In this document: positions 136 to 45,945 of the stretch, piece after piece | Layout of the letters: each line of letters opens with the position of its first letter | How positions within the stretch are numbered: the first letter of the stretch is position 1 | NCBI GenBank assembly: GCA_026396415.1 | Contig: JAPLWX010000033.1 | Span: 1 to 48,100, forward strand | Direction of reading: 5' to 3' | Source of the DNA: Microcaldota archaeon | GTDB lineage: Archaea; Micrarchaeota; Micrarchaeia; Anstonellales; Anstonellaceae | Length of the DNA: 48,100 bases | The notes under the pieces: generated by a model | The model's input: the letters and a program-made list of their open reading frames with translations, nothing else | Told to the model about the DNA's origin: nothing | Database searches by the model: none | Translations under genes and position numbers: made by a program

Positions 136-149
136 TAAAAACGTCTTAT
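136..149 (-). terminator. T-run downstream of tRNA-Asp
   Basis: On the minus strand the bases right after tRNA-Asp end in a run of five T, an archaeal-type terminator. The group II intron begins immediately beyond it. Confidence 0.4.
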
Positions 150-221
150 CGCCCCGACCGGGATTCGAACCCGGGTCACCAGATCGACAATCTGGGATGC
201 TAACCACTACACCATCGAGGC
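150..221 (-). tRNA. tRNA-Asp (GTC)
   Basis: A 72-base cloverleaf without intron. The 7-bp acceptor pairs GCCTCGA with TCGGGGC, the anticodon loop is TTGTCGA (GTC, Asp), and the T-loop TTCGAAT lies on a CCGGG/CCCGG stem. The discriminator is G150. It is the last gene of a minus-strand unit that starts with tRNA-Tyr and passes through a hairpin array. Confidence 0.95.
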
Positions 222-425
222 ACTTTCAGATGCGAGGCATCTGGAAGGACAGCGGAACCACAGTTCCGCTGGATCGCAAACTGCGCAGCAGTTTGGGGGA
301 CAGTCGAGCGCAGCTCGACTGGACGGACAATTTGTGCTGCGGCGCAAATTGGACAAAACAGGCGAACGGCGACCCGCTCGCCTGGATCGGCAAATCCACG
401 AGGATTTGGCGCGCGCTTCACCCCT
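222..425 (-). repeat. Array of seven dissimilar hairpins between tRNA-Tyr and tRNA-Asp
   Basis: Seven short inverted repeats follow each other with almost no gap. Examples of their arms are CAGATGC/GCATCTG, AGCGGAAC/GTTCCGCT, CAAACTGC/GCAGTTTG, AGTCGAGC/GCTCGACT and CCAAATCC/GGATTTGG. Stem sequences are unrelated, but the short linkers between them are mostly GGAC or GGAT, and loops are 3-4 bases (GCA, CACA, ACGA); one has a longer loop. The array lies between two co-oriented tRNAs, so it would be transcribed as part of their precursor. There is no convincing ORF. This is not a CRISPR array: neither repeat nor spacer is constant. Confidence 0.8.
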
Positions 426-448: not shown

Positions 449-689
449 TCCCGCCAGTGTGATCTGTTCAACCCCTTCTCTTGCTTTTCCGTGAACGCTT
501 CGCACTTTTTGCGCCTTCGCAAAAAGGCGCATCTTTTTCGCCGAGGCGAAAAAGTTCGTTGCGAGCGTACCCATCTGGAGCGAGCAAAAGGGTTCTTGAA
601 CACACAACATCTTGATGACTGCCAGCACAATCGCCGACGGCCGTTGTTTTTCTACAGCCAAGCACTCTACCAGGTTGAGTTATGGCGGG
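449..689 (-). tRNA. tRNA-Tyr (GTA) with two introns
   Basis: The acceptor arms 689-683 and 456-450 pair perfectly (CCCGCCA/TGGCGGG), with discriminator A449. The anticodon loop begins CTGTAG (GTA, Tyr). A 35-base intron (651-617) lies at the canonical site after position 37, and TCAAG (615-611) closes the stem. The T-stem GTGTG (605-601) and CACAC (461-457) are separated by 139 bases: the T-loop starts TTCAAG, is interrupted, and ends with T462. A second intron of about 132 bases (594-463) is therefore inferred at or near position 59/60, a site known for some archaeal tRNA introns. The second junction does not form a strict bulge-helix-bulge, so its exact ends are uncertain. Confidence 0.85.
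463..594 (-). other. Second intron of tRNA-Tyr, in the T-loop, made of hairpins
   Basis: The insert opens with AACCCTTT and closes with AAGGGGTT, which pair and bring the two tRNA halves together. Inside are two near-identical-looking hairpins (CTTTTTCGCC.. and CTTTTTGCG..; plus-strand 513-534 and 537-558) in tandem, enclosed by a weaker outer pairing. Their style matches the intergenic hairpin modules at 870-1080. It appears to be a tRNA intron enlarged by a hairpin module. Boundaries may shift by one base (595-464). Confidence 0.65.
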
Positions 690-6322: not shown

Positions 6323-6498
6323 GGAAGCCTTTCTCAGGCTGCTTTAAAAACGATTGCTCCCGTCGGCGGCTCCCCTTCCTTCCCTGCAAGCTACTGCTTC
6401 TTCTTGGTTGGAGCAGAGCGGCGACCCGCTCTGCTGCCGAAGAAAATCCTCAGATTTTCCTCGTTGGAGCAGAACCGCGGTTCTACTGCCGAAAAAAC
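6323..6498. repeat. Intergenic hairpin module with a repeated frame
   Basis: Two units at 6417-6441 and 6463-6493 share the frame GTTGGAGCAG at the start and CTGCCGAA at the end but have different stems inside (GAGCGG..CCGCTC versus GAACCGCGGTTC). A third hairpin, GAAAATC/GATTTTC, lies between them. This constant-frame, variable-stem style recurs elsewhere in the window. TTTAAAA at 6343-6350 on the minus strand could be the cca promoter. Confidence 0.7.
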
Positions 6499-15712: not shown

Positions 15713-15834
15713 GCCTATCGTTCCTTATTGTTGTTATATGTGTTTATAAATATATAAGTGTGTTGACAGACGCTGCCAACGGTGCCTGCGCAAGCCCCAA
15801 CCTTCCCGTGGCATGTGCATTTTGCAGCAGCAAA

Positions 15835-16056
15835 ACGCATCAGATGTGCAACGCGCAAGCGTTGCACAATTGTCGAGCCTGGCTCGACAAGTCATCGAGC
15901 GAAGCTCGATGCTGAAACTTGGGGCAAGTTTGCCAGATGCCGCCTGATTCGTCAGGCGGCTGTATCGCGCATTTTGACTTTTTTTATTGTATTGTAAATT
16001 CTATGCCCGCAGGCATATCATTTACAATGCGGACAAAGCTTTGCGAAGCTTTGTCC
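15835..16056. repeat. Intergenic cluster of hairpins
   Basis: At least six perfect or near-perfect hairpins in sequence: GTGCAACG..CGTTGCAC, TTGTCGAGCC..GGCTCGACAA, CATCGAGC..GCTCGATG, GCCGCCTGA..TCAGGCGGC, TTGTAAAT..ATTTACAA (enclosing a smaller GCC/GGC stem) and GGACAAAGC..GCTTTGTCC. The 24 bases at 15893-15916 recur exactly at 26886-26909 beside rps10. There is no gene in 15713-16080. Confidence 0.8.
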
Positions 16057-16080
16057 TTTTATGAAAAGATTAGCGGGAGC
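16057..16080. repeat. 24-bp direct repeat, copy 2
   Basis: Exact copy of 14505-14528, ending one base before the stop codon region of the gene at 16082-17047. Confidence 0.9.
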
Positions 16081-20496: not shown

Positions 20497-20542
20497 CATT
20501 TTCGCAGACGAAAATGGCGAGGCATTTTCCGCAGGAAAATGC
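20497..20542 (+). repeat. Two hairpins in the tRNA-Ala trailer
   Basis: CATTTTCG/CGAAAATG (20497-20515) and GCATTTTCC/GGAAAATGC (20522-20542), separated by GCGAG. The next T-run, at about 20545, may terminate the tRNA and also overlaps the promoter of the next gene. Confidence 0.75.
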
Positions 20543-21903: not shown

Positions 21904-22028
21904 GCGTATCACCGCCAAACATACGCCTTCCCCATTTTTATTACATTCGCATCGCTTCGCTCTCCGGATGCTAAAAAGCTGTCTGCAGCTTTTTAAACTC
22001 TATCTGCAAATTTTTGCCAAGGTAAGCC
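21904..22028. other. Divergent promoter region with a hairpin over a TATA box
   Basis: AAAAAGCT..AGCTTTTT (about 21972-21993) forms a hairpin that ends in CTTTTTAAACT, a good TATA box for the ferredoxin gene direction. No gene. Confidence 0.5.
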
Positions 22029-22103
22029 CTATGCCAAAAGTGATCGCCAAACTTGCATGTTTGGCGAGCCTTTGGCAGGCGAACGGAGTGAGACTATGCC
22101 AAA
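22029..22103 (+). repeat. Hairpin module between 10-bp direct repeats at the ferredoxin start
   Basis: CTATGCCAAA occurs at 22029-22038 and again at 22094-22103, the second copy holding the ferredoxin start codon. The 55 bases between contain the hairpin CGCCAAAC..GTTTGGCG and a second partial one. The first copy lies at the expected position for a leaderless or short-leader start from the TATA box at 21990, so the module looks like an insertion that duplicated the start of the gene. Confidence 0.6.
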
Positions 22104-25689: not shown

Positions 25690-25712
25690 ATTGGCAAAAA
25701 GAAAAAATTAAA
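25690..25712 (-). terminator. T-rich terminator of tRNA-Ser
   Basis: On the minus strand the tRNA is followed by AATTTTTTCTTTTTG. Confidence 0.6.
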
Positions 25713-25842
25713 CGCCGACGAGGAGATTTGAACTCCTAAGCCCCGAAGGGCACTAGATTTCCAGCCGTGCTGGGAAAGACAGGGGGCACGCATGCCCCCT
25801 GGATTTCAAGTCTAGCGCGATACCAGGTTCTGCCACGTCGGC
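25713..25842 (-). tRNA. tRNA-Ser (TGA) with an intron
   Basis: Acceptor arms GCCGACG and CGTCGGC pair, with discriminator G as is usual for serine. The anticodon loop is CTTGAA|A (TGA) on a CTAGA/TCTAG stem, and the long variable arm GCCCTTCGGGGC is diagnostic of a class II tRNA. A 46-base intron (25804-25759) sits after position 37 and itself forms hairpins CAGGGGGCA..TGCCCCCTG and CCAGC..GCTGG. The T-loop is TTCAAAT. Confidence 0.92.
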
Positions 25843-25985
25843 ACGGACAATTCCCGCAGGAATTGGACAGCTGGTCGGGCGACGGCAGTTTTGCGCTGCA
25901 AAACTGCGCCCATTCGCCCGCAGGCGAATCGGGAGCCCGACCGGATCGTCATCGCCGCGAGGCGATGGCGGTTCTACTTGGCAAA
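25843..25985 (-). repeat. Hairpin array in the tRNA-Ser leader
   Basis: Hairpins CAATTCC..GGAATTG, a GGTCGGGC..GCCCGACC pair that encloses GCAGTTTTGC..GCAAAACTGC and ATTCGCC..GGCGAAT, and ATCGCC..GGCGAT. Linkers GGAC occur as in the array at 222-425. It separates the tRNA promoter from the tRNA by about 130 bases, so it should be transcribed as leader. Confidence 0.75.
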
Positions 25986-26822: not shown

Positions 26823-26860
26823 TTTTCGCAAAAATAAAGAACTCAGAACGGAAAATGTGC

Positions 26861-26909
26861 TTTTTGCCCTGCAAAAAACATCAGACATCGAGCGAAGCTC
26901 GATGCTGAA
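26861..26909. repeat. Hairpins downstream of rps10, one shared with 15893-15916
   Basis: TTTTTGC..GCAAAAA (26861-26877) and CATCGAGC..GCTCGATG (26886-26904). The latter with its flank (26886-26909) is identical to 15893-15916. A similar TCAGACATCG..CGATGAAG hairpin lies on the other side of rps10 at 27243-27270. Confidence 0.75.
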
Positions 26910-26914
26910 GAAAC

Positions 26915-27220
26915 TTACTCCAGGCTTATGTTCACCTGCACATTCTCGGGCACGCGCACCCTCATGATCTGCCTCAGGGTCCTCTCGTCCCCTGCGACGT
27001 CGATGATGCGCTTGTGTATCCTCATCTCCCAGTGCTCATAGGTATCCGAGCCGTCCCCGCAGGGCGTGCGCCGTGTCGTGACCGACATGCGGTGGGTGGG
27101 CAGCGGGATGGGCCCCTTGATTTCCACTCCTGTCGCCTTTGCAATCTCCACAATCTGCTTGCAGACCTCCTCGAGCTCTTCGGGGATCTTTCCAATCAAC
27201 TTGATTCTTGCCTTGCCCAT
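26915..27220 (-). CDS. rps10: 30S ribosomal protein S10 (uS10)
   Basis: 101 residues, the usual archaeal length. ARIKLIGKIPEEL at the start, VEIKGPIPLPTHRMSVTTRRTPCGDG in the middle and HWEMRIHKRIIDV are the conserved uS10 segments. It sits in the small-subunit head. It follows the elongation factor 1A gene, the standard archaeal tuf-rps10 order. The ATG at 27220 is placed by homology; a GGAG ribosome-binding site lies in the loop of a hairpin just upstream. Confidence 0.96.
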   Translation of the reverse strand: MGKARIKLIGKIPEELEEVCKQIVEIAKATGVEIKGPIPLPTHRMSVTTRRTPCGDGSDTYEHWEMRIHKRIIDVAGDERTLRQIMRVRVPENVQVNISLE

Positions 27221-27222
27221 GT

Positions 27223-27242
27223 AAATTTTCCTCCGAAAATTT
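27223..27242 (-). promoter_or_regulatory. Ribosome-binding site in a hairpin loop before rps10
   Basis: AAATTTTC and GAAAATTT are perfect arms around a 4-base loop. On the mRNA the loop reads GGAG and is extended by the next G/A, so the Shine-Dalgarno sequence is displayed on an A/T-stemmed hairpin about 10 bases before the start. It may tune rps10 translation independently of aEF1A. Confidence 0.5.
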
Positions 27243-27347
27243 TCAGACATCGCCCTTCAGGGCGATGAAGATCGTTTCACCGATTCTCCGTTCCGATTCG
27301 CGCCGACCGGACACTTTTCCATAAAAATCAATTAAAAAAATAAAAAA

Positions 27348-30928: not shown

Positions 30929-31023
30929 GCCCCTGTAGCTCATCGGTAGAGCGGTTGTCTTGTATTCCGCGCACGCGCGGGCAGGCAAACAACAGGCACC
31001 GAGTTCAATTCTCGGCGGGGGCT
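30929..31023 (+). tRNA. tRNA-Thr (TGT) with an intron; integration target
   Basis: The acceptor GCCCCTG pairs with CGGGGGC. The anticodon loop is CTTGTA|A (TGT, Thr) on a GTTGT/ACAAC stem, with a 23-base intron at 30965-30987 containing CGCGC..GCGCG. The T-arm is CCGAG-TTCAATT-CTCGG. The last 14 bases (31010-31023) form most of the att core of the element that follows; integration leaves the tRNA intact. Confidence 0.93.
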
Positions 31024-31024
31024 T
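31010..31024 (+). other. Left attachment site (attL) in the tRNA-Thr 3' end
   Basis: TCTCGGCGGGGGCTT is repeated exactly at 47936-47950. The integrase gene starts 85 bases inside the element, as is usual for tRNA-targeting tyrosine recombinases. Confidence 0.85.
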
Positions 31025-31069
31025 ACCACGAAACGAGTGGTTTTGCTATCTTTACGACGTTAAAAGCTC

Positions 31070-31080
31070 CTCTTTTAAAG
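31070..31080 (+). promoter_or_regulatory. TATA box of the integrase gene
   Basis: CTCTTTTAAAG lies 30-40 bases before the ATG, and GGTGGTC is the ribosome-binding site. Confidence 0.45.
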
Positions 31081-31109
31081 TCATCTGACCATATAATCCC
31101 GGTGGTCAT

Positions 31110-32390
31110 ATGCCCTATTGGGAAGTGCGTCTAGCTAAGCAAGAATGCTTTACCGACGAGGATAAGGAACTGTTCACTAAATTTGCGAAGGATGCCCTAT
31201 TACACGACATACATGACGTGCGTATTGACAAGTACAGGGGGGACCTTACCATCTGCAACACCATCACTGGGATGGGTCTTGCAGAGATGGTGAAGAACGA
31301 AGCAAACCTGAAGAAAGCCATCTCAAAGATAAACGCAGACAAGGTCTATGAATTTGCCACCAAGAAAGACGCTAAAAGGACTCTGGGGAGCATGTACTGT
31401 CTTGTCCACTACAAGGACCGCAGCCTAGATGCTGCACCTCTACCGCTCAGAAAGCTGACATGGCACACTGCAAAGGGGTCTGATAAGAAGCTTGCACGGC
31501 CAATAATAACTAGAGCAGAGATAGCAGACCTATGCAAGCAAGCAACGACAACGATGGATAAAGCTCTGATTTGGCTACTTTTTGAGAGCGGAATGCGCAT
31601 TGGTGAGTTTATCCAGTTGAAGAAGTCCAACATTACACAGATAGACGAAGGACTAGAGGTCAAGGTTCCGGCAGGCAAGACTGGAGAACGAAAGGTTGTT
31701 GTTGTCGCAGCAGCAAAGTACGTTATTGCTTGGCTCGATGAACACCCACTGAAAGAGGCCGATGCTCCACTGTGGTTCTATTCACAGAAGAAATGGCGAG
31801 AGAATGAAAAAGGGAAGAAGGTCCCGTATACAATCCGTGAAGGCAGTTTGACAGCAGCAGGGGTTGTCACGCACCTAAAGAAGACAGTGGCACGTCTCAA
31901 TAACTATAGGAAGAAAGATGGCATTCCGTTATTTGCAAAGGATACCAACCCTCATAATTTCAGGCATTCGCGTGCATCTGAGCTTGGCGGTGAGCCTGGA
32001 ATGACAGAGCAGATACTCTGTCGTTATTTTGGATGGGAGATTGGCTCAGATATGCCTCGAACCTATTTGCACCTCACTGATGAGCAGGTCAAGCGTGCAG
32101 TGTTAAGGACCTATGGACGCGCAAGCAAGGAAGAGGACAAGAAGATTATAACCGAGTGGGAATGCGCTAGGTGCCACAACAAGACCCCACTTACAGTTAA
32201 CTATTGTGGGACCTGTGGTGCAAATCAGCACTCTGATAAGCTTCCGAGCAAGATAGAGACCTTGCAGGTGCGCGTGGAAGAGCTTGAAAGCAAAAATAAG
32301 AAGATACTCGCTTTCCTCGCCAAAAATTATGCCCTTGTCAAGAAGAAGGACTTTGAAGTGCTGATGGGCAACGACGATGCGGACGACTAA
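31110..32390 (+). CDS. int: Tyrosine recombinase (integrase) with a C-terminal zinc ribbon
   Basis: 426 residues. The catalytic core shows the first Arg in FESGMRIGEFIQL (about residue 160), HNFRHSRASELGG with the His-x-x-Arg pair (about 290) and the nucleophilic Tyr in DMPRTYLHLTDEQ (about 320). A C-terminal zinc ribbon (CARC, then CGTC) and a short coiled coil follow. It should insert and excise the element at the tRNA-Thr site through a covalent 3'-phosphotyrosine intermediate. The gene is intact and not split by integration, so it is unlike SSV-type integrases. Position next to attL supports the role. Confidence 0.92.
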   Translation: MPYWEVRLAKQECFTDEDKELFTKFAKDALLHDIHDVRIDKYRGDLTICNTITGMGLAEMVKNEANLKKAISKINADKVYEFATKKDAKRTLGSMYCLVHYKDRSLDAAPLPLRKLTWHTAKGSDKKLARPIITRAEIADLCKQATTTMDKALIWLLFESGMRIGEFIQLKKSNITQIDEGLEVKVPAGKTGERKVVVVAAAKYVIAWLDEHPLKEADAPLWFYSQKKWRENEKGKKVPYTIREGSLTAAGVVTHLKKTVARLNNYRKKDGIPLFAKDTNPHNFRHSRASELGGEPGMTEQILCRYFGWEIGSDMPRTYLHLTDEQVKRAVLRTYGRASKEEDKKIITEWECARCHNKTPLTVNYCGTCGANQHSDKLPSKIETLQVRVEELESKNKKILAFLAKNYALVKKKDFEVLMGNDDADD

Positions 32391-32455
32391 GCAGTGGAGG
32401 AGTCAGTCCAGGTCTAATTCTCTCTACACAACTTAGTTCATCCCGTTGAACATAT

Positions 32456-32514
32456 CGTTTTATAAACACTTCTTAATGTAAATGGTATTTGAGGGTATAC
32501 CTACAAGGTATAGC
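32456..32514 (+). promoter_or_regulatory. Promoter with GGTAT repeats before the small-gene operon
   Basis: GTTTTATAAAC (about 32457-32467) is a TATA box. Downstream, GGTATT, GGTATACC (32494-32501, a palindrome) and GGTATAGC follow at intervals of 10 and 13 bases, near the expected start site. They could be repressor sites for the operon that begins at 32529. Confidence 0.45.
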
Positions 32515-32528
32515 TTCGAGGTGTATGT

Positions 32529-32672
32529 ATGCAAGTGAAACTGAACGGGTTTGGATGTGAACGGTGCGGCCACCAGTGGATTCCGAAAAAGAAGGACACG
32601 GTGCCCGTAATATGTCCAAAATGCAAATCCCCGTATTGGAATCGCCCAAGGCGGAAGTCAATGAAAAAGTAA
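32529..32672 (+). CDS. Small zinc-ribbon protein
   Basis: 47 residues. Two CxxC pairs (CERCGHQW and CPKCKSPYW) form a rubredoxin-type zinc ribbon, and the tail is basic (RPRRKSMKK), typical of small DNA-binding proteins of archaeal viruses and plasmids. A ribosome-binding site GAGGTG precedes the ATG. First gene of the operon. Confidence 0.75.
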   Translation: MQVKLNGFGCERCGHQWIPKKKDTVPVICPKCKSPYWNRPRRKSMKK

Positions 32673-32686
32673 GTGGAGGTATATCT

Positions 32687-32917
32687 ATGAAACAAACAAA
32701 AAATGAAGAACTAAAAACAGTGGAGAGTGGTCAAACGCTTGATGACGAGATACCGTTTTGCGTGAGTCCTACAGACTATGTCGACCGTGCAACCGTGTGT
32801 GAGTACATTATGAAAAACTTCGGCGTAATTGCTCTCAAAAACTGCAAGGTCGGCGGCAGGCAGGTCATCGCCATGGCGGTGATGAAAAACGACATGTTGT
32901 TCACTGTAATGGTGTAG
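32687..32917 (+). CDS. Small element protein, unknown
   Basis: 76 residues, acidic N-terminal half and a mixed hydrophobic C-terminal half. The ATG at 32687 follows GGAGGT at a good distance; a longer reading frame upstream overlaps the zinc-ribbon gene and is rejected. Confidence 0.65.
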   Translation: MKQTKNEELKTVESGQTLDDEIPFCVSPTDYVDRATVCEYIMKNFGVIALKNCKVGGRQVIAMAVMKNDMLFTVMV

Positions 32918-33028
32918 ATGGACGCAGAGACGGTGAAGCATGACATACCAGTTGGGGACCTAAAAACCGACCTTGTTATTATGAGGTATACACTAAGTAG
33001 GACACAGTTGGCGTGGATTTTTTTGTAG
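32918..33028 (+). CDS. Very small protein (36 residues)
   Basis: The start ATG follows directly on the preceding stop (TAGATG), which suggests coupled translation. No motif. It may be a chance ORF. Confidence 0.35.
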   Translation: MDAETVKHDIPVGDLKTDLVIMRYTLSRTQLAWIFL

Positions 33029-33073
33029 CGTGGTTTGGTTTCGAGAGGTGAGCGTAAGCATTGAGGTGGAAAA

Positions 33074-33448
33074 ATGAATGAAATAGAACTAGAAGAATTG
33101 AGTCGGGTATTGCAGCACACGCGGCGCAGCAAAATACAGGTATTCCAGCCAGCAGTGGGTTCACCTGTACAAGTCAGAGTCGTGGACGCAAAGGTGCGCA
33201 TAACCAAGACCAAGCGCAGCAAGGGCGATGAAGTCAGGGAGTGGGAGTTCCCCATCATCACCCTGACCATTGACCAGGTCGATGGCAAAGTCCCTGCAAC
33301 AGGCACATGTAGGTTCCGTACTGCAAGCAAGCAGTTGGCAATCGAGATGTATCCATACCTGAACAGCTGCAAGGGCAAAACCTTTGTACTTGGGTACAAG
33401 ACAACAGGTGCGCGGACGAAGCAGTGGAAGTTTGAGCCTGTAGATTGA
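33074..33448 (+). CDS. Unknown protein, possibly OB-fold-like
   Basis: 124 residues. After a helical N-terminus (about 1-30) the sequence alternates as beta-strands (VQVRVVDAKVRITKTKR, FPIITLTIDQVDGKV, KTFVLGYKTTGARTKQW), a pattern compatible with an OB fold as in single-stranded-DNA-binding proteins of replicons. This is an inference from strand pattern only. Ribosome-binding site GAGGTGG before the ATG. Confidence 0.55.
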   Translation: MNEIELEELSRVLQHTRRSKIQVFQPAVGSPVQVRVVDAKVRITKTKRSKGDEVREWEFPIITLTIDQVDGKVPATGTCRFRTASKQLAIEMYPYLNSCKGKTFVLGYKTTGARTKQWKFEPVD

Positions 33449-33459
33449 AGGTGGTTTAG

Positions 33460-33717
33460 ATGGATGAAAAATCAAAGAACAGAACGAGAGACCTGCCACG
33501 TGATTTGGTTAACCGGTTGGGCGAGGTTGAATCGGAATTTGGTAGTAGCAGTATATCAGATAAACGGTGGGTTTTGGCTCTTATTGTTGGGTACGCGGAG
33601 TATAGAACGCGTGAAATAGACGGCCTGTACAGTTTCCAAGCATCAGGTGCCGTATCCAGAGCCATGTGTGATATACGTAAACAGCAAGGGCACGGTGAGC
33701 CTAAGATTGAGTGGTGA
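33460..33717 (+). CDS. Small element protein, unknown
   Basis: 85 residues, charged and helical. It begins just after the preceding gene with GAAGGTGG as ribosome-binding site. No family recognised. Confidence 0.55.
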   Translation: MDEKSKNRTRDLPRDLVNRLGEVESEFGSSSISDKRWVLALIVGYAEYRTREIDGLYSFQASGAVSRAMCDIRKQQGHGEPKIEW

Positions 33718-33722
33718 TTTGG

Positions 33723-33824
33723 ATGAAGGTAAAAAAGATAGAAACGTTAGGAGAATTTATGAAAAAACTGGGATGTACGCACATGGTCCCGTCGCGGAGC
33801 TGGCGGAGTTCGAGGGCGGTTTAG
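33723..33824 (+). CDS. Very small basic protein (33 residues)
   Basis: Starts 5 bases after the previous stop with GGTGATTTGG as ribosome-binding site and ends in TAG directly followed by the next ATG. A different open frame (33647-33850) overlaps here; the tight spacing favours this reading, but neither is certain. Confidence 0.35.
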   Translation: MKVKKIETLGEFMKKLGCTHMVPSRSWRSSRAV

Positions 33825-33929
33825 ATGAGATGGAGAGCAGACAAATGTGACAAATGGCAGCAAGGTACAGTGGAGCAGTATCTTGCGTGGAAACGACAGG
33901 GAGATACAAAGCAGACGAAATTAGTGTGA
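33825..33929 (+). CDS. Very small protein (34 residues), Trp/Lys-rich
   Basis: Its ATG abuts the preceding stop and its stop (TGA) lies 11 bases before the next ATG, with GAGGTGG between. The composition (four Trp, many Lys/Gln) and the position in the gene chain support translation. No function suggested. Confidence 0.4.
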   Translation: MRWRADKCDKWQQGTVEQYLAWKRQGDTKQTKLV

Positions 33930-33939
33930 GGTGGATACA

Positions 33940-34311
33940 ATGGACGCAGAATTTGAAGAGATGATGTGTAACGATGTGGATGAAGATGCCGAATGTGTGA
34001 AAGACATTGAGGCAGTGGCGGTCAAGCGGAAACCGACCCAGCTCACACAAAACGAGATACACGACTTTGCAGTAAAGCTGCACTGGCTATTGTCAGACCA
34101 CAAGCTGAACAGTGACCACATCATGCTGCTCGGTCAACTCTTGGTGAGGAAACGTTCGATGTACTGTCAATTCTATACGGTAGACCAAACGGACAGTGAG
34201 CTGGTATCCAAGATAGACGCAAGCTATCAACAGGTGCTGTGTTCTGCGGCAGCAGACGCGGTTGAGAACGCACGGGCAAAGAACGTGCGTGGTGATGGTG
34301 TGGACGGGTGA
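33940..34311 (+). CDS. Acidic element protein, unknown
   Basis: 123 residues with a strongly acidic first 25 and a helical remainder. Start at the ATG at 33940, 6 bases after GAGGTGG; the GTG at 33931 lies within that site. Gap 34312-34476 after it is AT-rich and shows only possible promoter elements. Confidence 0.55.
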   Translation: MDAEFEEMMCNDVDEDAECVKDIEAVAVKRKPTQLTQNEIHDFAVKLHWLLSDHKLNSDHIMLLGQLLVRKRSMYCQFYTVDQTDSELVSKIDASYQQVLCSAAADAVENARAKNVRGDGVDG

Positions 34312-34476
34312 GTGACTATTATGTCGATGGTGTATTTTCACTATTTTTTATTTTTTCAAAATTCATTAAAATATAGATAATCATTTTTGGAAGTGGGGTT
34401 TTCCCGATGAAATGTTTTTCGATTAATAGCATGTATTTTTTCCAAAACAGCTTTGTTATTATGAGAACATTTAGAT

Positions 34477-34746
34477 ATGGTATTATCGTCTGATGGCAAG
34501 ATGGTTTTTATGGCGCAAACAGACCGGAAAAAGGAATTCGAGCAGTTCATGCAGCGAGTGCACACCTTCCCCATCACGTTGAAGCAACTTGCCTATGTTG
34601 CAGATGCTGAATATCCTAAATCACTCAGTGGGCAGAGTGTCGTGAAGTGGGCGCATATTCTAGCAGTACAGAACAAGATTATCCTGCGTCGCGTCGGGCG
34701 CTGCAATGTAATTTTTGCATATAATCCTGAAGGCAAGTCAGTCTGA
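34477..34746 (+). CDS. Small winged-helix-like protein
   Basis: 89 residues. The part FPITLKQLAYVADAEYPKSL followed by SVVKWAHILAVQNKIILRRVGR resembles a helix-turn-helix with a wing, so it may be a DNA-binding regulator. An alternative start exists at 34501 or 34510. Confidence 0.5.
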   Translation: MVLSSDGKMVFMAQTDRKKEFEQFMQRVHTFPITLKQLAYVADAEYPKSLSGQSVVKWAHILAVQNKIILRRVGRCNVIFAYNPEGKSV

Positions 34747-34798
34747 GTCGTTGTTTCCATTTACGACTATAGAATTAAGTGGAAGGATTTGATGCGGT

Positions 34799-35110
34799 AT
34801 GGACTATGAAATTTTCAAGGTTGCTAACAGGTCCGCGTACATACATCGGGCAAATCCAAAGGCACCAGTAAAGCCAGTTGCAAAGTATGAGCCTGAGTTC
34901 CCCTGTCTTGAAGGCCGCAAGCATCGGTACAGGCTTGTTGGACACGGTAAGGTTGACATGTATGACAAAATCTGTGTTCATTGCAGCTATCTGGTCGCAT
35001 TCATAGCGATACGGTCCAATGAAGGACATTATGCACATAAGGGCGCGCAGTGGCGTCCGCGCAAGGTGGGTAGATTTGATGGGAACGGAATGGCGAAAGG
35101 TAATATTTGA
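34799..35110 (+). CDS. Small element protein with a potential metal site
   Basis: 103 residues, basic. Cys and His in PCLEGRKHRYRLV and YDKICVHCSY could coordinate zinc. No family recognised. It overlaps the next gene by 32 bases. Confidence 0.5.
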   Translation: MDYEIFKVANRSAYIHRANPKAPVKPVAKYEPEFPCLEGRKHRYRLVGHGKVDMYDKICVHCSYLVAFIAIRSNEGHYAHKGAQWRPRKVGRFDGNGMAKGNI

Positions 35111-35264
35111 CGACTATGGCAGACCGACCCCAAAATCGGGGGAGTTTGTCAAAGAGGATGCACTGTTCATTTACCTCAAGACAGACCGGGGCATTGAGGC
35201 TATCTCCAAATCAAAGATAACGCGAATGGAAATCAGTGGAGGGGACGGGAATGGAAGACAGTGA
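35079..35264 (+). CDS. Small element protein, unknown
   Basis: 61 residues. The ATG at 35079 is chosen because AAGGTGGG precedes it; a longer frame from 35019 is less likely. The stop overlaps the start of the helicase gene (35251) by 14 bases, suggesting translational coupling. Confidence 0.5.
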   Translation: MGTEWRKVIFDDYGRPTPKSGEFVKEDALFIYLKTDRGIEAISKSKITRMEISGGDGNGRQ

Positions 35265-36693
35265 TTGCAATACAAATAATGTAGACGACGCAAGTTTCAG
35301 ATTCCTAGTAAATGATGCACGGAATCCAAAGAACAAGACAAAAATTCCTATGCATCTAGCGAGACATATGCTGTCAAGAGATAGGTACATTTCTCTCAAC
35401 GATGCAATGATATACAAGTACAAAAACGGGATATATGAAAGACACTGGGATATGATTAGCAGTGATGCACATAAGACGTTGGTGCGAGCAAACATCTCGA
35501 ATGAAATTAACGCGACAACACATATTGTCAATGAGACTGTAAGCAGGATATCAAGAGAAACGAGAAAAGAAGCTAGTGTCGTTGAATGCAGACCCAACCT
35601 AATATGTCTCTCGAATAAAGTGTTGGATGTCAACACTAGTGAATTGAAAGACCACACACCCGATGTAGTTTTTTTCAATAAGATACCAGTTAAGTATGAC
35701 TCTAAAGCAAATTGTCCAAAATTTGACAAATTTCTAAGTGAAGTCGTTTCTGAAGACGACACAAGAGTCGTATATGAATTATTTGGATATTTGCTCTATC
35801 GTGGATATCCAATACAAGTAGCATTCATGTTAGTTGGAGAAGGCAGCAATGGTAAAAGCACGTTGATAAGGGCAATGAATGCGTTTGTTGGCGAAGAAAA
35901 CATGACACATATTTCTCTCCAAGATATATGTAACAAAGATTTTGCAGTGGGAAATCTTCATGGCAAGCTGCTCAACTCTGATGCAGACTTGAAGGATATA
36001 GAATTGACAGACACGGGTATGTTCAAGAAAGTAACAGGAGGGGACATGATTAGTGCAGATGTCAAAGGAAAAGAAAGAATTAGTTTTATGAACTATGCCA
36101 AGCTGGTGTTTGCCTGCAACAAAGTCCCAGTACCTAAAAAATCAGAATACTCATACACACGAAGATGGGAAGCAATTATGTTTAACAATAAGTTTGAAGG
36201 AGCTAGAGACAACAAGAACCTGATAAATGAAATCACAACACCGGAAGAACTCTCAGGTATATTGAACAAAGCACTCCAAGGACTGAAAACTATAATGGCG
36301 AACGGACGGTTTAGTACCAATGACAATGACCGCGATAAAATATCCAAGTTGTTTGCACCTGTGAAGTACTTTGTTGACATGGAATGTTTTACAGCATTCG
36401 ATGCTAAAGAAACGAAGGGACGTATGTACTCGGCATACATAGAGTTTTGTAAGAAGCATAACATTCCCTTGTTATCTGACAAAGCATTTGGAAAATCTCT
36501 AAATGAGTATATACGCATACAAGAAGGACATATTTATGTGGGTGGAGTACAGTGTGAAACTTGGCTCGGAGTAAGATTAAAGACGATGGAGGAAAAACGT
36601 ACAAAGACAGAAGAAGAACTTGAAGAAGAGAGACGACTAATAGAGGAAGATAAACAAAGGATGCAAGAAATGCAAGAACCTGACCCATTTTGA
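35251..36693 (+). CDS. D5/P4-family superfamily 3 helicase (replication initiator)
   Basis: 480 residues. The N-terminal part (about 20-190) matches the D5_N-type domain that precedes the helicase in phage P4-like and poxvirus D5-like proteins. The Walker A motif is GEGSNGKSTL (about residues 200-210), then LLNSDADLKD (Walker B-like) and the SF3 motif C KLVFACNKVP. An Arg finger candidate follows in TRRWEAIMF. The C-terminal 50 residues are a Glu/Arg coiled coil. It should unwind the origin for element replication. No primase active site is visible in the N-terminus. The ATG at 35251, 6 bases after GGAGGGG, is preferred over an upstream GTG. Confidence 0.9.
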   Translation: MEDSDCNTNNVDDASFRFLVNDARNPKNKTKIPMHLARHMLSRDRYISLNDAMIYKYKNGIYERHWDMISSDAHKTLVRANISNEINATTHIVNETVSRISRETRKEASVVECRPNLICLSNKVLDVNTSELKDHTPDVVFFNKIPVKYDSKANCPKFDKFLSEVVSEDDTRVVYELFGYLLYRGYPIQVAFMLVGEGSNGKSTLIRAMNAFVGEENMTHISLQDICNKDFAVGNLHGKLLNSDADLKDIELTDTGMFKKVTGGDMISADVKGKERISFMNYAKLVFACNKVPVPKKSEYSYTRRWEAIMFNNKFEGARDNKNLINEITTPEELSGILNKALQGLKTIMANGRFSTNDNDRDKISKLFAPVKYFVDMECFTAFDAKETKGRMYSAYIEFCKKHNIPLLSDKAFGKSLNEYIRIQEGHIYVGGVQCETWLGVRLKTMEEKRTKTEEELEEERRLIEEDKQRMQEMQEPDPF

Positions 36694-36703
36694 TTTTTAG
36701 GGT

Positions 36704-36840
36704 ACTGTTATGACTCTTTTCTTATATCTACTTTAAAAATAAAAAAAGAAGAAAATTAAATTTAATATAGTGTGAACAAAAAGACTCATAACAGTCATTC
36801 GAAAAGTCCCAGTCATTCATCTAGTGGAATTTTATCGATG
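36704..36840. other. Candidate replication origin of the element
   Basis: ACTGTTATGACTCTTTT (36704-36720) and its complement at 36779-36795 form an inverted repeat with one mismatch around a strongly AT-rich 57-bp core. The direct repeat AGTCATTC follows twice (about 36793 and 36811), then ATCTAGTGGAATTT (36819-36832), which recurs at 37231-37244. The site lies just after the initiator-type helicase gene, a usual place for such origins. The rest of 36841-36990 is without a gene. Confidence 0.5.
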
Positions 36841-36990
36841 CAATCTTGGAGATGTATTCTATTCACGTGTGTGGTGTCGTCTATGAAGCAAGGTAGTGTG
36901 GCAGCAAGCACGTCTGTTTTAATATCTCAGTAAGAAGTCCGCGAACAGTCGAATGCAACGTTAGTATGTCAGCGCAAGCGAGGTGGCAAT

Positions 36991-37206
36991 ATGGAACATA
37001 TGAAGAAGACAATCGCAAGGAAGTATGCAGTTGAGTTGTGGCCTGTTGACAATACAAAATGGGTCCTATCAATTGTCAAGGTGGGTGCAGACTTCAAGTA
37101 TTTGCTTGAACGTGAAGGTGCATACAACAAGCTCTTGACCGTCTATAGGTCCATCAAGACCGTGAGCGACATCAAGAGACTGTCAGGAAGGGACTTCGTT
37201 GGTTGA
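36991..37206 (+). CDS. Small basic element protein
   Basis: 71 residues, Lys/Arg-rich with several aromatic residues, no motif. The start follows GCGAGGTGGCAAT. It lies between two copies of the ATCTAGTGGAATTT repeat. Confidence 0.55.
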   Translation: MEHMKKTIARKYAVELWPVDNTKWVLSIVKVGADFKYLLEREGAYNKLLTVYRSIKTVSDIKRLSGRDFVG

Positions 37207-37222
37207 AGGACGAACAACGAAA

Positions 37223-37244
37223 GTCCACTAATCTAGTGGAATTT
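37223..37244. repeat. Second copy of the ATCTAGTGGAATTT repeat, inside a small palindrome
   Basis: TCCACTA-ATC-TAGTGGA is a perfect 7-bp palindrome that includes the repeat. No gene in 37245-37391; a TATA-like CGCTTTAAAACG is present near 37282. Confidence 0.55.
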
Positions 37245-37391
37245 CAATGTTCAAGGTTTCATGTCAACATCTCAAAATATCGCTTTAAAACGCAAATCTC
37301 ACGTGTTCTCGCGCATAAAATCAAGGGACTAGCGAAGAGTTGAAGTAAACTCGGTAAATCCTGTCAACTGACCCTAAAAACAATAGAAAAG

Positions 37392-37706
37392 ATGGTTCTG
37401 ATGGAAAATCAACAAGACCTTAGTCAAGATGCTGAACGTACTCGTAAGTCGAGGACACCACGTGTTGGTAAGTTTAGTCTGGCAAGGTCACTCCAATACA
37501 TTCGTGATGAGACCAAGATGAAACATGATAGTCTGGACACGATAGGACCCTATGAAGGACAAAGAAAGTTCACACTCTATTGGTTTAACGGACCGAGTGA
37601 CCGTTGGGTCGTCAAAGTAGAATTCTCTTGGACAAAGTTGCTCGAAGTATGCGGCGACATGTATTGCAAAGATGATGATGCGTTGAAGTGTGGAAATGCT
37701 GAATGA
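37392..37706 (+). CDS. Small element protein, possibly continued beyond a TGA
   Basis: 104 residues, basic N-terminus, then a Trp-containing strand-rich part (FTLYWFNGPSDRWVVKVEFSW). After its stop the same frame stays open for another 66 codons (to 37907) with protein-like composition. Start at 37392 or at the ATG at 37401. Confidence 0.5.
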   Translation: MVLMENQQDLSQDAERTRKSRTPRVGKFSLARSLQYIRDETKMKHDSLDTIGPYEGQRKFTLYWFNGPSDRWVVKVEFSWTKLLEVCGDMYCKDDDALKCGNAE

Positions 37707-37907
37707 GAGCTGCACCAAGAAGTATCAGGGAACAAGTTCTTTTCCCCATCTACCTCCGAGTTACCCCGATACTTGGTGATACAGCGACTAGAACAGCTAA
37801 AGGAGAACAACATCAATGTGAGAGAAGGACCATACTATCCTCCAATTTATGGTGTTGTTTTTCGGCTAATGCAGTCAGCTAAGATAGAAATAGGAAACAA
37901 AAGGTGA
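37707..37907 (+). pseudogene. Open frame in phase after the TGA of the previous gene
   Basis: The translation contains FFSPSTSELPRYLVIQRL and YYPPIYGVVFRLMQSAKIE, which look like genuine protein (winged-helix-like). No good start codon or ribosome-binding site precedes it, so it is probably the C-terminal half of the 37392 gene cut off by a nonsense mutation or separated by a readthrough stop. Alternatively it starts at an internal GTG or TTG. Confidence 0.4.
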
Positions 37908-37912
37908 AACAA

Positions 37913-38176
37913 ATGGAAGAAGAACAAAACGAACAGCGGATGCCAGAGCAGCAGAAGATAAGCAAGGAAGAACAAGAGGCGATGGCTTCAGCAGGTCTGA
38001 AAAGAGTCAGACGATACGGTGGCAAGGTCTACGAACTGTATGGACTCGCTTTGTTAGATGACACACGGAAGTGTCAAGAGCTAATGGAACTTGCACAAGG
38101 TTTCAAGACGCAGGGAATTCCATGCCGCACTGAAGAGAAGGCTTCATGTGTCGCAGTGTACATCAGGGTCTCGTAG
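37913..38176 (+). CDS. Small acidic element protein
   Basis: 87 residues; the first 30 are Glu/Gln-rich, the rest mixed. Start ATG at 37913 after AAGGTG. No family recognised. Confidence 0.5.
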   Translation: MEEEQNEQRMPEQQKISKEEQEAMASAGLKRVRRYGGKVYELYGLALLDDTRKCQELMELAQGFKTQGIPCRTEEKASCVAVYIRVS

Positions 38177-38184
38177 GTGTTGCT

Positions 38185-38361
38185 ATGGTCAACAAAAAAT
38201 GTATTTTGATGGTAGACTGTCCGACAAGGGGCCCCGTCAGAGTGATGTTTGAGAATCACATGAAGCTTGAGTATCTATTGTTGATGGGGAGAGGGCTGGT
38301 GGAGTTGGAGGAGAAACACAAACACGACCTTGCAATACTGAAGAAAAGGAAGGTGAAATGA
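38185..38361 (+). CDS. Small element protein (58 residues)
   Basis: Start at 38185 after TAGGTG; the product has a hydrophobic strand followed by a Leu/Glu/Lys coiled-coil-like end. It overlaps the protease gene start by 4 bases (ATGA type), suggesting coupled expression. Confidence 0.5.
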   Translation: MVNKKCILMVDCPTRGPVRVMFENHMKLEYLLLMGRGLVELEEKHKHDLAILKKRKVK

Positions 38362-38699
38362 TGCCTATAATCAGAAAGATGACCCTCATTGGTTCAAGTG
38401 GTCGACAAGTCATTGAGGTCTTAGTGGACACGGGTGCAACTCGTACGATTGTCCGACAAGATGTTGCTGAAGCAGTCGGATTGCCTAAGAGCGGAGAGAA
38501 TAAGGTCTTCACCGATGCTTCGGGCCATGATAACCCTGCAATTGGCGGCAAGCTTGTATTGAGATACATGCGCAAGGTCTATCCAGTCTATGGTTTTGTA
38601 TCAGACAAGTTGGATTGTCCTTGTCTTCTTGGCATGGATTTTTTGCAGATGTACAAGGTCAGAATAGATTCAAGGTCTCAAAGACTGTATTTCAAGTGA
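38358..38699 (+). CDS. Retropepsin-like aspartic protease
   Basis: 113 residues, the length of one retropepsin monomer. VLVDTGATRTIV (Asp at about 24) is the DTGA active-site loop, and CPCLLGMDFLQMYKVRID near 92-108 is the second signature (LLGxDFL) of clan AA proteases. It should be active as a homodimer, each subunit giving one Asp. Related stand-alone proteins (clan AA, archaeal AF_0612-type) are known in archaea. Here it lies in a mobile element after two small genes; a virion maturation role is possible but no structural genes are seen. Either of two adjacent ATGs may be the start. Confidence 0.8.
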   Translation: MMPIIRKMTLIGSSGRQVIEVLVDTGATRTIVRQDVAEAVGLPKSGENKVFTDASGHDNPAIGGKLVLRYMRKVYPVYGFVSDKLDCPCLLGMDFLQMYKVRIDSRSQRLYFK

Positions 38700-39307
38700 T
38701 ATCGTCGACAAACAGGCAAGCTCCGAGGTCAATTCTTGCTTGAAAAAAGGATGTTTTACGTCGTAGAAAGTAGAAATAGGTCTTGGAAGGCTACTACCTG
38801 TATGGAATTAGTCTTGGATGTCGACAGAACAGAGAAAAAACTCATAATTTGTGGTTGAAAAACACCTGACTGCTTATTTCTGAACAAAAAAAGTCTCGTA
38901 GTTTGAGTAAATAAATGCATAATTGTTTAGTGAAGGAGATATGCTCCCGTGCTACCAACATTATTTACACAATTATTTAGACGAGTAATTATTTACAGGA
39001 GTTTTTTACTTGTTCATGTTGACCTGATTCAACTGGTGTCAAATTGACGTTCTTGAAACAGGTGTCAAATCTTTCAGAGTTTGAGCTGTGGTTTTGCTAG
39101 GCGAATCGAAAGAAAAACAATAGTTCTGTGGATAGAATTCTATGAATTGTACAACGTGTTTTGTTCTTGTCGGCTTTACACGAGCAGATTTGCTGGTTGG
39201 AGTATTAATTTTCAAGTACAAACAAAGCTCTTCTTTTATATATCAGACGTTGGAAAGCCCGCCCGCAACGAGGCGATTTTGCGGATATAACCCAACTAAA
39301 ACAGGAA
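38700..39307. other. Gene-free region with AT-rich direct repeats
   Basis: No convincing gene in 600 bases. Three ATTATTTA units (38960, 38972, 38988) and two GGTGTCAAAT units 26 bases apart (39035 and 39061) stand out. A TATA box TTTTATATATC (39233-39244) lies near the end. It could hold a second origin, a centromere-like site or a non-coding RNA. Confidence 0.4.
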
Positions 39308-39622
39308 TTGGAGCAATTCATAGGGACGGAATATTACCATAAACATTGGTTAGGAGGCAAATACACTGACGGAGTGGCATATCTTGCCAAGACGATTGAC
39401 TGTTTTTGGCTGCTCGATGCCATCTTCTCCTATTCACGCCCGGAACCCTTCCAGCTTTGGGAATTGACCGTGAAACACAACAAGAGCGCTGTCTTGACTA
39501 TGAAGGAAGACAGTAACTTGGAAGCAAAGGTCATGCAAGAAATCAAATGGACTGACTTCCCAGAAGGAAAATTGAAGCTGTATGTGTGTGATGGCGTTCT
39601 GTTATTGCCAAGTGAGTATTGA
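39308..39622 (+). CDS. DUF6876-like protein
   Basis: 104 residues from a TTG codon. FIGTEYYHKHWLG, then GVAYLAKTIDCFWLLDAIFSY and the end VCDGVLLLPSEY are, from memory, the pattern of DUF6876, a family common on phages and plasmids of bacteria. No ATG, GTG or TTG occurs upstream in frame, although the sequence stays protein-like for about 7 codons before it (TQLKQELEQ). A TATA box at 39233-39244 puts initiation at about 39265-39270, so a non-standard start is possible. Function unknown. Confidence 0.65.
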   Translation: MEQFIGTEYYHKHWLGGKYTDGVAYLAKTIDCFWLLDAIFSYSRPEPFQLWELTVKHNKSAVLTMKEDSNLEAKVMQEIKWTDFPEGKLKLYVCDGVLLLPSEY

Positions 39623-39631
39623 GGTGGTTGA

Positions 39632-39805
39632 GTGAATGTGAGAATAGAAAGCACGAAAGGCAGGCTTCAGGCATTTCTAAGGTATTTCTATTATGTAGAA
39701 CGAGCTGCGCAACACGAAGGTTACGATACAAGTACTTTGTGGACCGACGCGGCAAGCGATTTTCACGAATTGTTGATGAAAGCTGAGAAACGGGCAAGGC
39801 GATAA
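39632..39805 (+). CDS. Small element protein (57 residues, GTG start)
   Basis: Begins 9 bases after the DUF6876-like stop, with GAGGTGG as ribosome-binding site before GTG. The product is helical with many Arg, Glu and aromatic residues. The next gene starts 1 base after its stop. Three small genes form a tight operon. Confidence 0.55.
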   Translation: MNVRIESTKGRLQAFLRYFYYVERAAQHEGYDTSTLWTDAASDFHELLMKAEKRARR

Positions 39806-39806
39806 A

Positions 39807-40013
39807 ATGATTGTGATTCTTCCGACGTTTAAGGGATATACGATTGATGTCCGATTGGGGCAGTTTAGGAAGGTGTCTCGTGAAAACGGTATTGAGTTCC
39901 TTGACTTTGATGAAGAAGAAGGTGACGAGCTGCTGGCGGAGTATTTAGGCACGTTGAATTTGAAGAAGGCTAAGGACAAAGCGATGTTTGATAAAATCGC
40001 TGATATTTTCTAG
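39807..40013 (+). CDS. Small acidic element protein (68 residues)
   Basis: Beta-strand-like start, then an acidic helical region (FLDFDEEEGDELLAEYLG) and a Lys-rich end. Start ATG directly follows the previous stop (TAAAATG). Last of the plus-strand run; convergent with the PUA-like gene. Confidence 0.55.
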   Translation: MIVILPTFKGYTIDVRLGQFRKVSRENGIEFLDFDEEEGDELLAEYLGTLNLKKAKDKAMFDKIADIF

Positions 40014-40017
40014 AACA

Positions 40018-40407
40018 TTATTGAAAAAAGCTCAACTCTTTCTTTCCACTTTCTATTTCATGCTTAATTTGATTAAATTCAGTATCACTTAATTGAACTA
40101 GATTTGGAGAAGCTCCGTTTAATTTTTGCATTTTTATCTTGTGTTGAAGTGGTCGTGCAGTAATTCCCTCATTAGCCACAATAATTGGCTCTATTTTGAT
40201 TTGAAAAGGGTATTTCTTTTCCCATCCATTAAATTCGTTATCAACAATTTTTACAACTCTAAATATGCCAAAAACTAGACCCTCGCCATAGTAAACAACA
40301 CAATCGTTCACAGTAATTTCGTTGCGTTCTTTTGAATATCGAAACCCACAATATTCTTGTGTTTTATAAAATGCTTCAAATGAATGATTTACGAGCCAAG
40401 TAGCCAC
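40018..40407 (-). CDS. PUA/EVE-like accessory protein of the restriction system
   Basis: About 129 residues. The start ATWLVNHSFEAFYKT and CVVYYGEGLVFGIFRVVKI suggest the beta-barrel of EVE/ASCH-type PUA domains, which bind modified bases. An ATG at 40440 is possible but lies inside the upstream res gene; the GTG at 40407 preceded by AGTGAT is preferred. It follows res with a small gap, so it is part of the mod-res operon and may sense or protect modified DNA. Confidence 0.5.
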   Translation of the reverse strand: MATWLVNHSFEAFYKTQEYCGFRYSKERNEITVNDCVVYYGEGLVFGIFRVVKIVDNEFNGWEKKYPFQIKIEPIIVANEGITARPLQHKIKMQKLNGASPNLVQLSDTEFNQIKHEIESGKKELSFFQ

Positions 40408-40415
40408 TATAATCA

Positions 40416-42611: not shown

Positions 42612-44301
42612 TTTTGAACACCTTTCTGTAAACGTGTAATATTACTTCAGGTATTGGACATAAGTTTATTTTATGTCTAATAGCTTTGAATTCATCTTCT
42701 GGTACTGTGTCATCTAACGAGAATACATACACATTAATATGCCCATCAATTTCTTTTACTTCATCGATAAAATCTTCGATATAATCTGGGTCAAAAATTA
42801 TTCCAAGATGCGTCTCTGAATTCTTAAAAATCTTATACTTGTTATTCTTATCTTTAACTAGATTAAATGCGTTTTCCTTTAGACAAATCATCTCAGTTGA
42901 TTTATCTACGATTTTACGCTTGTTTTTATCAGTAGGTGAAGAATCTACAAAATCTGTTGTTAGGTACTTTAGATTGCCACCTAGTCCATCTACTTTATTT
43001 CCTTCTGGTGTTTTGTACCCTTTAATTACTTTTTCTAAACGCGGATAACAGACATTGGTGCAAATATCGCCTTCGTTATTTGTGCAAAGTATAAACTTTC
43101 TATCTCCGTCGTCTTCCTTATTTAGCTCCAATACGGCGTGTCCAGTTGTGCCTGAGCCAGCAAAAAAGTCAAGAACAATTAAATCTTTTTTATTAATCAA
43201 ATTTACCAAATATTTGATTAAACTAGTAGGCTTTACTGTGTCAAATACTTTTTCTCCAAAAATGTTTTTTAGTTCTATTGTTCCTGTTGCAGATGTTCCA
43301 ACACCTTGAAGAAAGGTACCATATGCCGTCTTTGTAATCTTACCATCTCGCTTCTTTGCATATGCTTTATACTTTCCATCAGATAAAACAAAATCAACAT
43401 CGCCATTTTCAATCATTTCTTTCATTCTAGATGCACTTACTCGCCAACACCCCTCTTTTCCATCTTCTCGCATCGGCAATATTGATGAACCATCTGGTGC
43501 AATAAGAGGATAAAACATGGTGGGACGGTCTTTTCTAGTATCGTGTGTCCCCCACTGACGAAGTTGTTCTCTACGATATGCCCCCTTTGCGTCCCTATAA
43601 TTTCCTCCGCTTGATACTCGTTCATCCTTTTTTATATTCAATTTAGATATATTTTTGGAAAAACAAATAACATACTCATGACTAACAGAAACATTAACGG
43701 CAGTATGGTCTCTCCCAGACCTTCCTTCCCAGATATAATTTGCTACAAAATTTTTTTCATTAAAAATTTCATCACACAATACTCTAAGTTGTGCAAGTTC
43801 GTTATCGTCAATTGAAATAAAAATAACACCCGATTCCTTAAGCAAAGTTCTTGCCAACTTTAACCTCTTTTCCATAAAAGAAAGCCATTTACTGTGTCTA
43901 TAGGCATCTTCTTTGTCCACCCACACATCATTATATTTGAAATCTTTGTTGCCCGTATTATAAGGCGGGTCGATGTAAATTACATCTATTGCTTTGTTGT
44001 GTGTAAAATTTAGAACGGCTAATGAATGATAGTTATCTCCTTCTATTAAGTGGTTATATGGTTGGTCTTTGGCAGTTGTGATATCTTTCGTCTTAACTTC
44101 TTTCAAAACAGGGAATTTGTGTTGGGTCTTATCAAAATTCTCCTTATTCTTAATCCCGTCCCAATTCATATAGTAATCAAATACTTCTTTTGTCTTATCC
44201 TCTTCCCAAACAAGACCATATGTCTTCTGCTTTTTGAGTGCTTCGACTTCTCTAACTAGCTCTTCTTTACTCCAGGTTGAATAGTCTCTCTTCTTGCTCA
44301 T
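42604..44301 (-). CDS. mod: Type III DNA methyltransferase, Mod subunit
   Basis: 565 residues. DPPYNTGNKDF (about 125) is the catalytic DPPY motif of N6-adenine methyltransferases and FFAGSGTTGHAVLEL (about 385) is the SAM-binding motif; their order is the beta class typical of type III Mod. It recognises the target sequence and methylates one strand. Its start is preceded by a promoter region that also contains the imperfect palindrome at 44354-44378, shared with the end of the element. The recognition site cannot be read from sequence. Confidence 0.93.
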   Translation of the reverse strand: MSKKRDYSTWSKEELVREVEALKKQKTYGLVWEEDKTKEVFDYYMNWDGIKNKENFDKTQHKFPVLKEVKTKDITTAKDQPYNHLIEGDNYHSLAVLNFTHNKAIDVIYIDPPYNTGNKDFKYNDVWVDKEDAYRHSKWLSFMEKRLKLARTLLKESGVIFISIDDNELAQLRVLCDEIFNEKNFVANYIWEGRSGRDHTAVNVSVSHEYVICFSKNISKLNIKKDERVSSGGNYRDAKGAYRREQLRQWGTHDTRKDRPTMFYPLIAPDGSSILPMREDGKEGCWRVSASRMKEMIENGDVDFVLSDGKYKAYAKKRDGKITKTAYGTFLQGVGTSATGTIELKNIFGEKVFDTVKPTSLIKYLVNLINKKDLIVLDFFAGSGTTGHAVLELNKEDDGDRKFILCTNNEGDICTNVCYPRLEKVIKGYKTPEGNKVDGLGGNLKYLTTDFVDSSPTDKNKRKIVDKSTEMICLKENAFNLVKDKNNKYKIFKNSETHLGIIFDPDYIEDFIDEVKEIDGHINVYVFSLDDTVPEDEFKAIRHKINLCPIPEVILHVYRKVFKND

Positions 44302-44353
44302 AGACGTTAATATGGAGCTATTGTTTTTATGGGTTCCTTTAGCTTAGGTGTTG

Positions 44354-44378
44354 TTAACCTTTCTTTATGGAAGGTTAA
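44354..44378. promoter_or_regulatory. Imperfect palindrome between mod and the membrane protein gene
   Basis: TTAACCTTTC..GGAAGGTTAA with 9 of 10 pairs. A close relative lies at 47711-47734. Located between divergent genes, so it is a candidate operator. Confidence 0.5.
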
Positions 44379-44387
44379 AAAGCAAAG

Positions 44388-44396
44388 AAGATAAAA
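44388..44396 (+). promoter_or_regulatory. TATA box of the membrane protein gene
   Basis: GATAAAATA is a TATA-like element about 30 bases before the GTG start. Confidence 0.4.
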
Positions 44397-44424
44397 TAGA
44401 TTGAGAGTTAAGCTGGGTGAAGCC

Positions 44425-45636: not shown

Positions 45637-45689
45637 TATGATAAAATGGAAATAGAACTATTCAGAGGCTTAACTACAAACATCTACAA

Positions 45690-45941: not shown

Positions 45942-45945
45942 AATC

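Follow-up and report, generated by a model that had tools for sequence, protein, structure and literature searches.

Rickettsia palindromic elements are selfish short palindromes of several families, which occupy spacers as well as in-frame sites in protein genes (summarized in PMC10969869). The double-hairpin elements of Allomyces mitochondria and the repetitive hairpin-forming elements of sponges are small, dispersed in spacers and variable between close species (PMC2800124), and the short palindromic repeats of Volvox organelle DNA are hairpins of about 50 nt that sit in spacers and introns and are often inserted into one another (PMC2670323). No description of comparable elements was found in the open-licence literature on Micrarchaeota palindromes and DPANN mobile hairpins.

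Here we analyze hairpins in a 48,100-nt stretch of archaeal DNA (the window), contig 7 in a genome of 1.74 Mb (G000), and in related genomes. The source organism is a micrarchaeon: the named organisms with the nearest DNA ligases all belong to Candidatus Micrarchaeota or elsewhere in that group. Judged from sequence comparison, they are probably (at a rough probability of 0.8) short selfish mobile DNA elements, mostly doublets of about 45–60 nt, that have multiplied in some Micrarchaeota. The case is a rich one: the elements are dispersed and patchily distributed, with more than 100 copies of one family (family A) in related species, orthologous sites are found empty, elements nest within one another, coding copies lie in frame, including in ribosomal protein genes, and stems change on both sides at once. 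If the reading is true, they would be the first archaeal selfish palindromes of the Rickettsia or double-hairpin type found, as far as the open-licence literature goes. Like the Rickettsia elements, they are dispersed palindromic repeats in several families, inserted in frame in unrelated protein genes. However, the Rickettsia elements are bacterial and about 100–150 bp long, against doublets of 45–60 nt here (about 55 nt in family A), and the archaeal elements nest in hairpin loops and have stems covarying between copies. With the mitochondrial double-hairpin elements they share two hairpins joined by a fixed linker, but those are organellar, whereas the archaeal elements lie on chromosome contigs, invade coding sequence and show pair-by-pair covariation over 63 family A copies. 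Because size differs in the first case and compartment in the second, we assign the archaeal elements to neither class; the likeness is one of way of working. The Volvox repeats are likewise organellar and, apart from one rRNA module, non-coding; neither a hairpin-loop register nor in-frame protein insertions are described for them (PMC2670323), whereas the archaeal elements show both.

A hairpin scan and locus comparison place an array of seven hairpins, in a GGA-stem-GA frame, at window positions 227–408, between tRNA-Asp (149–222, minus strand) and tRNA-Tyr (450–689, minus strand). The latter, which contains an anticodon intron and a T-loop intron, was read by eye without an ARAGORN call and has orthologues in congeners. 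The array, which the first-pass annotation had reported at 222–425, is real: six hairpins are perfect (stem ≥7 bp) and the seventh has an internal loop, against no more than three perfect hairpins in any 210-bp segment when the window is dinucleotide-shuffled 100 times. The repeating flanks it described are equally genuine, as GA borders both sides of 18 hairpins versus 6.1 expected. The array linkers GGGGA, GACGGA and GAC are identical in G008, and GACGGA and GAC in G005 too; where the array is shared, linkers are kept and stems covary, CAGTCGAGC/GCTCGACTG becoming CGGGCGAGC/GCTCGCCCG in G008. Seven genomes entered this comparison, three further congeners having no usable locus, and hairpins are present in the Asp–Tyr spacer of three of the seven (G000, G005 and G008) but missing from that of G001, G004, G006 and G007. 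The T-loop intron of tRNA-Tyr holds a hairpin doublet in the window (505–554), a different doublet in G001 and none in G008, and the intron itself is absent from G006. An earlier suggestion that such hairpins are substrates of tRNA-processing enzymes is not supported, given the four genomes lacking the array, the distance of most copies from tRNAs, the presence of the same families in protein genes and their random orientation to genes. As a DNA query the array found no second copy within its own genome, and an Rfam search matched tRNAs and a group II intron fragment but none of the hairpins. Hairpin 1 (227–243, CAGATGC-gag-GCATCTG) is the empty form of a hairpin that carries another doublet, E*, in the uS2 gene (L107). 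The array is probably a pile-up of mobile hairpins that drifted at a site common to three species; since some sites are common to several species, not all copies have been recently active. The group II intron match lies at 60–135, where the contig begins. Because the initial 141 bases are found again at the ends of further contigs, the assembly was broken by a repeated element.

Hairpins are also in excess over the window as a whole, where 67 perfect ones (stem ≥7 bp, loops 3–10) compare with 17–34 in five shuffles, and 16 stems of ≥9 bp with 0–3. The genome was scanned as 20-kb stretches. Over the 787 kb that the count covers, with coding regions masked by our own simple gene finder, stems of ≥8 bp number 168 in intergenic DNA against about 8 in shuffles (~20-fold) and 69 in coding DNA against 48 expected. 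The intergenic excess recurs in G003 (29 vs 2.4), G012 (103 vs 2.6) and G008 (37 vs 1.6), unlike in the congener G006, which shows no such excess (4 vs 2.2). Intrinsic transcription terminators would also be intergenic, and a few of the hairpins are followed by T runs; yet hairpin density is alike in convergent (46 per 23.6 kb), codirectional (172 per 93.8 kb) and divergent (60 per 40.7 kb) spacers, and hairpins are found within coding DNA as well as ahead of start codons. We rejected a terminator role on the spacer densities, and it has next to no chance of being the explanation. As a separate observation, a perfect 10-bp hairpin lies at 2440–2463, within and close to the 3′ end of the gene for a predicted TPR protein.

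The stems, at first described as unrelated, are not wholly so: most fall into recurring families, and many of the clusters are dispersed copies. The best defined of several families is family A, with the structure ATG-{TGCATTTTGC hairpin}-TCAGA-{CATCGnnC hairpin}-CTGA. A pattern search for it found TCAGA between two hairpins at 41 places and at none in reversed sequence; linkers between adjacent hairpins include TCAGA 27 times, GC 16, GA 11, A 9, GCCC 8 and GGACC 6. A family A covariance model gave 37 matches in G000, 61 in G012 (a related genus), 17 in G008 and 16 in G003, some of the matches being partial or palindromic reverse ones, with fewer in G001, G002, G004 and G005 and none in the three congeners G006, G007 and G009. 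Across the phylum, 18 of 295 sampled genomes contain family A, and strong matches extend beyond the order, within the class; the viral contigs (exact pattern) and plasmids searched gave no match to the element.

The similar modules noted earlier in the window, at 463–594, 870–1080, 6417–6493, 15835–16056, 20497–20542, 22039–22093, 25843–25985, 26861–26909 and 47851–47935, were all confirmed, and a further copy beside the S10 start codon (27219–27271) had been missed. At 870–1097, a family D/E element composed of doublets with GGGCCC and GCGCCC linkers has a 95% identical copy at L106:13234-13463. A hairpin pair lies upstream of the CCA-adding enzyme gene (6412–6459). The family A element at 15813–15915 (plus strand), with genome copies at 89% and 81%, has a family B doublet inserted after TCAGA, and the family C-type 78-nt repeat at 15979–16057, with an GGACAAAGCTT hairpin, has at least five genome copies, several at 92–100%. 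The trailer of tRNA-Ala contains a hairpin doublet (20497–20542) with a weak family A match on the minus strand, while two hairpins at 21972–22067 are absent from the orthologous spacer of G003. Further members are a hairpin in the anticodon intron of tRNA-Ser (25780–25801), the doublet E* (25881–25934) nested in a GGTCGGGC/GCCCGACC host hairpin (25873–25942, plus strand), a family A copy at 26855–26908 (plus strand) and two hairpins at 47867–47914. Elsewhere in the window, positions 30929–46560 look like an integrated island: the region is poor in genes, and an intron-containing tRNA-Ala (tgc) precedes an integrase of phage type and a DNA methylase.

The copy at 27219–27271 (family A-type, plus strand) lies between EF1A and the S10 start codon. 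The element is present in this spacer in G000 and G003, and six congeners have a short empty spacer instead. In G000 it separates a GGTGA motif from the start codon, and a new loop contains GGAGG. The junction shows no clear target-site duplication, few exact empty sites being available for comparison. Insertion also extends to other hairpins. One doublet, E*, is found in the loops of seven different host hairpins, and its flanks pair over 7–12 bp in seven of nine copies, essentially in one register, whereas permuting the flanks gives an expectation of 0.8 copies. Three hosts are recognizable: one is a family A hairpin (L082:17322-17424), another is a family B-like stem, and the third is an CCCTTTCTTT hairpin that is also seen empty at another site. 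This placement is confined to E*, as family A does not, as a rule, occupy the loops of host hairpins (2 of 39 copies versus 0.9 expected).

The elements had been thought to lie always outside genes, which proved wrong. In-frame copies occur in the essential ribosomal protein genes uL24 (L093) and uS2 (L107) and in topoisomerase I (L088), and an indole-glycerol-phosphate-synthase-like protein (L183) has two in-frame family A copies, these four genes being named from sequence and not by family search. Each E* copy in coding sequence, of which there are three, measures 57 nt, a multiple of three, within a size range of 54–57 nt for this doublet. Riboflavin synthase (RibC) of G012 has an insert absent from 13 relatives and a PyrK-like (oxidoreductase) protein has a 20-residue insert that G003 lacks, which gives two further empty sites; in a TYW1-like protein the insert is about 14 residues long. 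Taken with the sites above, the targets of insertion would be spacers, tRNA introns, loops belonging to other hairpins and, with the reading frame kept, protein genes.

Over 63 family A copies, 97.9% of the cells pair, and two-sided pair changes number 170 versus 38.9 in shuffles (none of 500 shuffles reaches this value), with about 30 one-sided changes; the model-fitted alignment leans towards structure, and an independent tally on 33 copies agrees. One pair takes all four Watson–Crick types without any one-sided change. The earlier proposal of a structural repeat or mobile hairpin in which pairing counts for more than sequence is thus borne out by this covariation together with the dispersed copies and empty sites. 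It also withstood the conditions meant to refute it, as shuffled DNA does not hold hairpins at equal frequency and relatives share some of the sites. Departures from pairing in family A comprise 11 G·T, 13 A·C and 15 others, whereas the counts for tRNA stems in these genomes are 28 G·T, 4 A·C and 23 others; in stems with one internal mismatch, 6 of 23 mismatches are of the transition type. Since two-sided changes come without a preference for G·T over A·C, we infer that pairing matters, or is produced by copying of the palindrome, at the DNA level rather than through selection on RNA. Orientation to genes is random (8 same, 9 opposite); either strand could thus be the source of an RNA, and the G·T argument is the weaker for it. 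Stable loops are favored, with GNA or its complement in 62 of 121 triloops and no bias to the sense (transcribed) strand.

Could the stems instead be functional RNA structures, such as tRNA-precursor processing signals, stabilizers or regulators, kept by selection on the transcript? Covariation is indeed very strong, several copies do lie in tRNA leaders, trailers and introns, and the S10 leader copy has in its loop a GGAGG that resembles a Shine-Dalgarno sequence; but the mismatch spectrum is unlike that of tRNA stems, orientation and loops follow no sense strand, copies occur in coding sequence, orthologous sites are empty and no Rfam family fits, all of which makes this explanation quite unlikely. 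Two-sided change would also arise if replication slippage or template switching created palindromes where they stand, with family likeness only apparent, and at the EF1A–S10 site G000 and G003 do differ in both arms of one stem, by a single base pair. Such formation does not account for the constant linkers and frames, such as ATG..TCAGA..CTGA, that are found again and again at dozens of loci unrelated to one another and also in other families and orders, and we regard a non-mobile origin as very improbable. Since the two-sided changes occur without wobble intermediates, the question of selection versus copying becomes testable for palindromes.

No transposase was found for the elements and, with few exact empty sites to compare, no clear target-site duplication. 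Hairpin DNA is the natural substrate of the Y1 (RAYT/IS200-IS605) enzyme family, and REP/BIME palindromes with their RAYTs resemble the archaeal elements in being small, dispersed palindromes in prokaryotic spacers. REP-like palindromes mobilized by a Y1 transposase would accord with this substrate and with the two Y1_Tnp genes of G000, one of which has an adjoining hairpin. Unlike REP/BIME, however, the archaeal elements have no matching tag, no consistent Y1 gene and no conserved stem sequence: the alignment, read by eye, has no GTAG or CGTC tag beside family A, the hairpins adjoining Y1 genes fall, also by eye, outside families A–E, and family A is carried by G012, G008, G004 and G005, incomplete metagenome-assembled genomes (MAGs) in which no Y1 match was found. 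In G012, a 90% complete MAG that carries 61 copies, nothing scored over the cut-off for Y1, RVT_1, IS110 or TnpB. MITEs are marked by target duplications and by terminal inverted repeats in common with an autonomous transposon; here none of the four enzyme families (Y1, reverse transcriptase, IS110 and TnpB) tracks the elements across the genomes, which as MAGs are incomplete. Mobilization by Y1 is therefore unlikely, although less so than the RNA or in-place explanations.

Selfish mobile DNA is most likely present here as a non-autonomous or host-replicated element that is active as a DNA hairpin. The hairpin would act as folded DNA, either as an extruded cruciform or as a single strand during replication, and a putative recombinase, or replication itself, would copy it to new places; hairpin loops may be favored targets for one family. 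With less certainty, arm complementarity might be kept by one arm templating the other, through template switching or snap-back synthesis. It is possible, though rather doubtful, that these elements constitute an unrecognized class of mobile DNA that moves as a folded hairpin by means of an enzyme or replication, targets hairpin loops including those of tRNAs, where it would seed introns, and recopies arm from arm.

Introns cut by the tRNA endonuclease have a bulge-helix-bulge where they meet the exons and are spliced out. Some elements lie inside tRNA introns, and insertion into such introns and into hairpin loops would suggest an origin for the numerous odd tRNA introns found in these archaea. 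A single perfect hairpin, CAGGGGGCA-TGCG-TGCCCCCTG, makes up most of the anticodon intron of tRNA-Ser (tga) at window positions 25712–25843. A G008 contig opens with a foldback of 69 bp (L204:1-142), probably an artefact of assembly, in which a family A element adjoins tRNA T-arm sequence, and at L101:15555-15672 there are two tandem tRNA-like copies with an CCAACTCC hairpin adjoining the T-arm.
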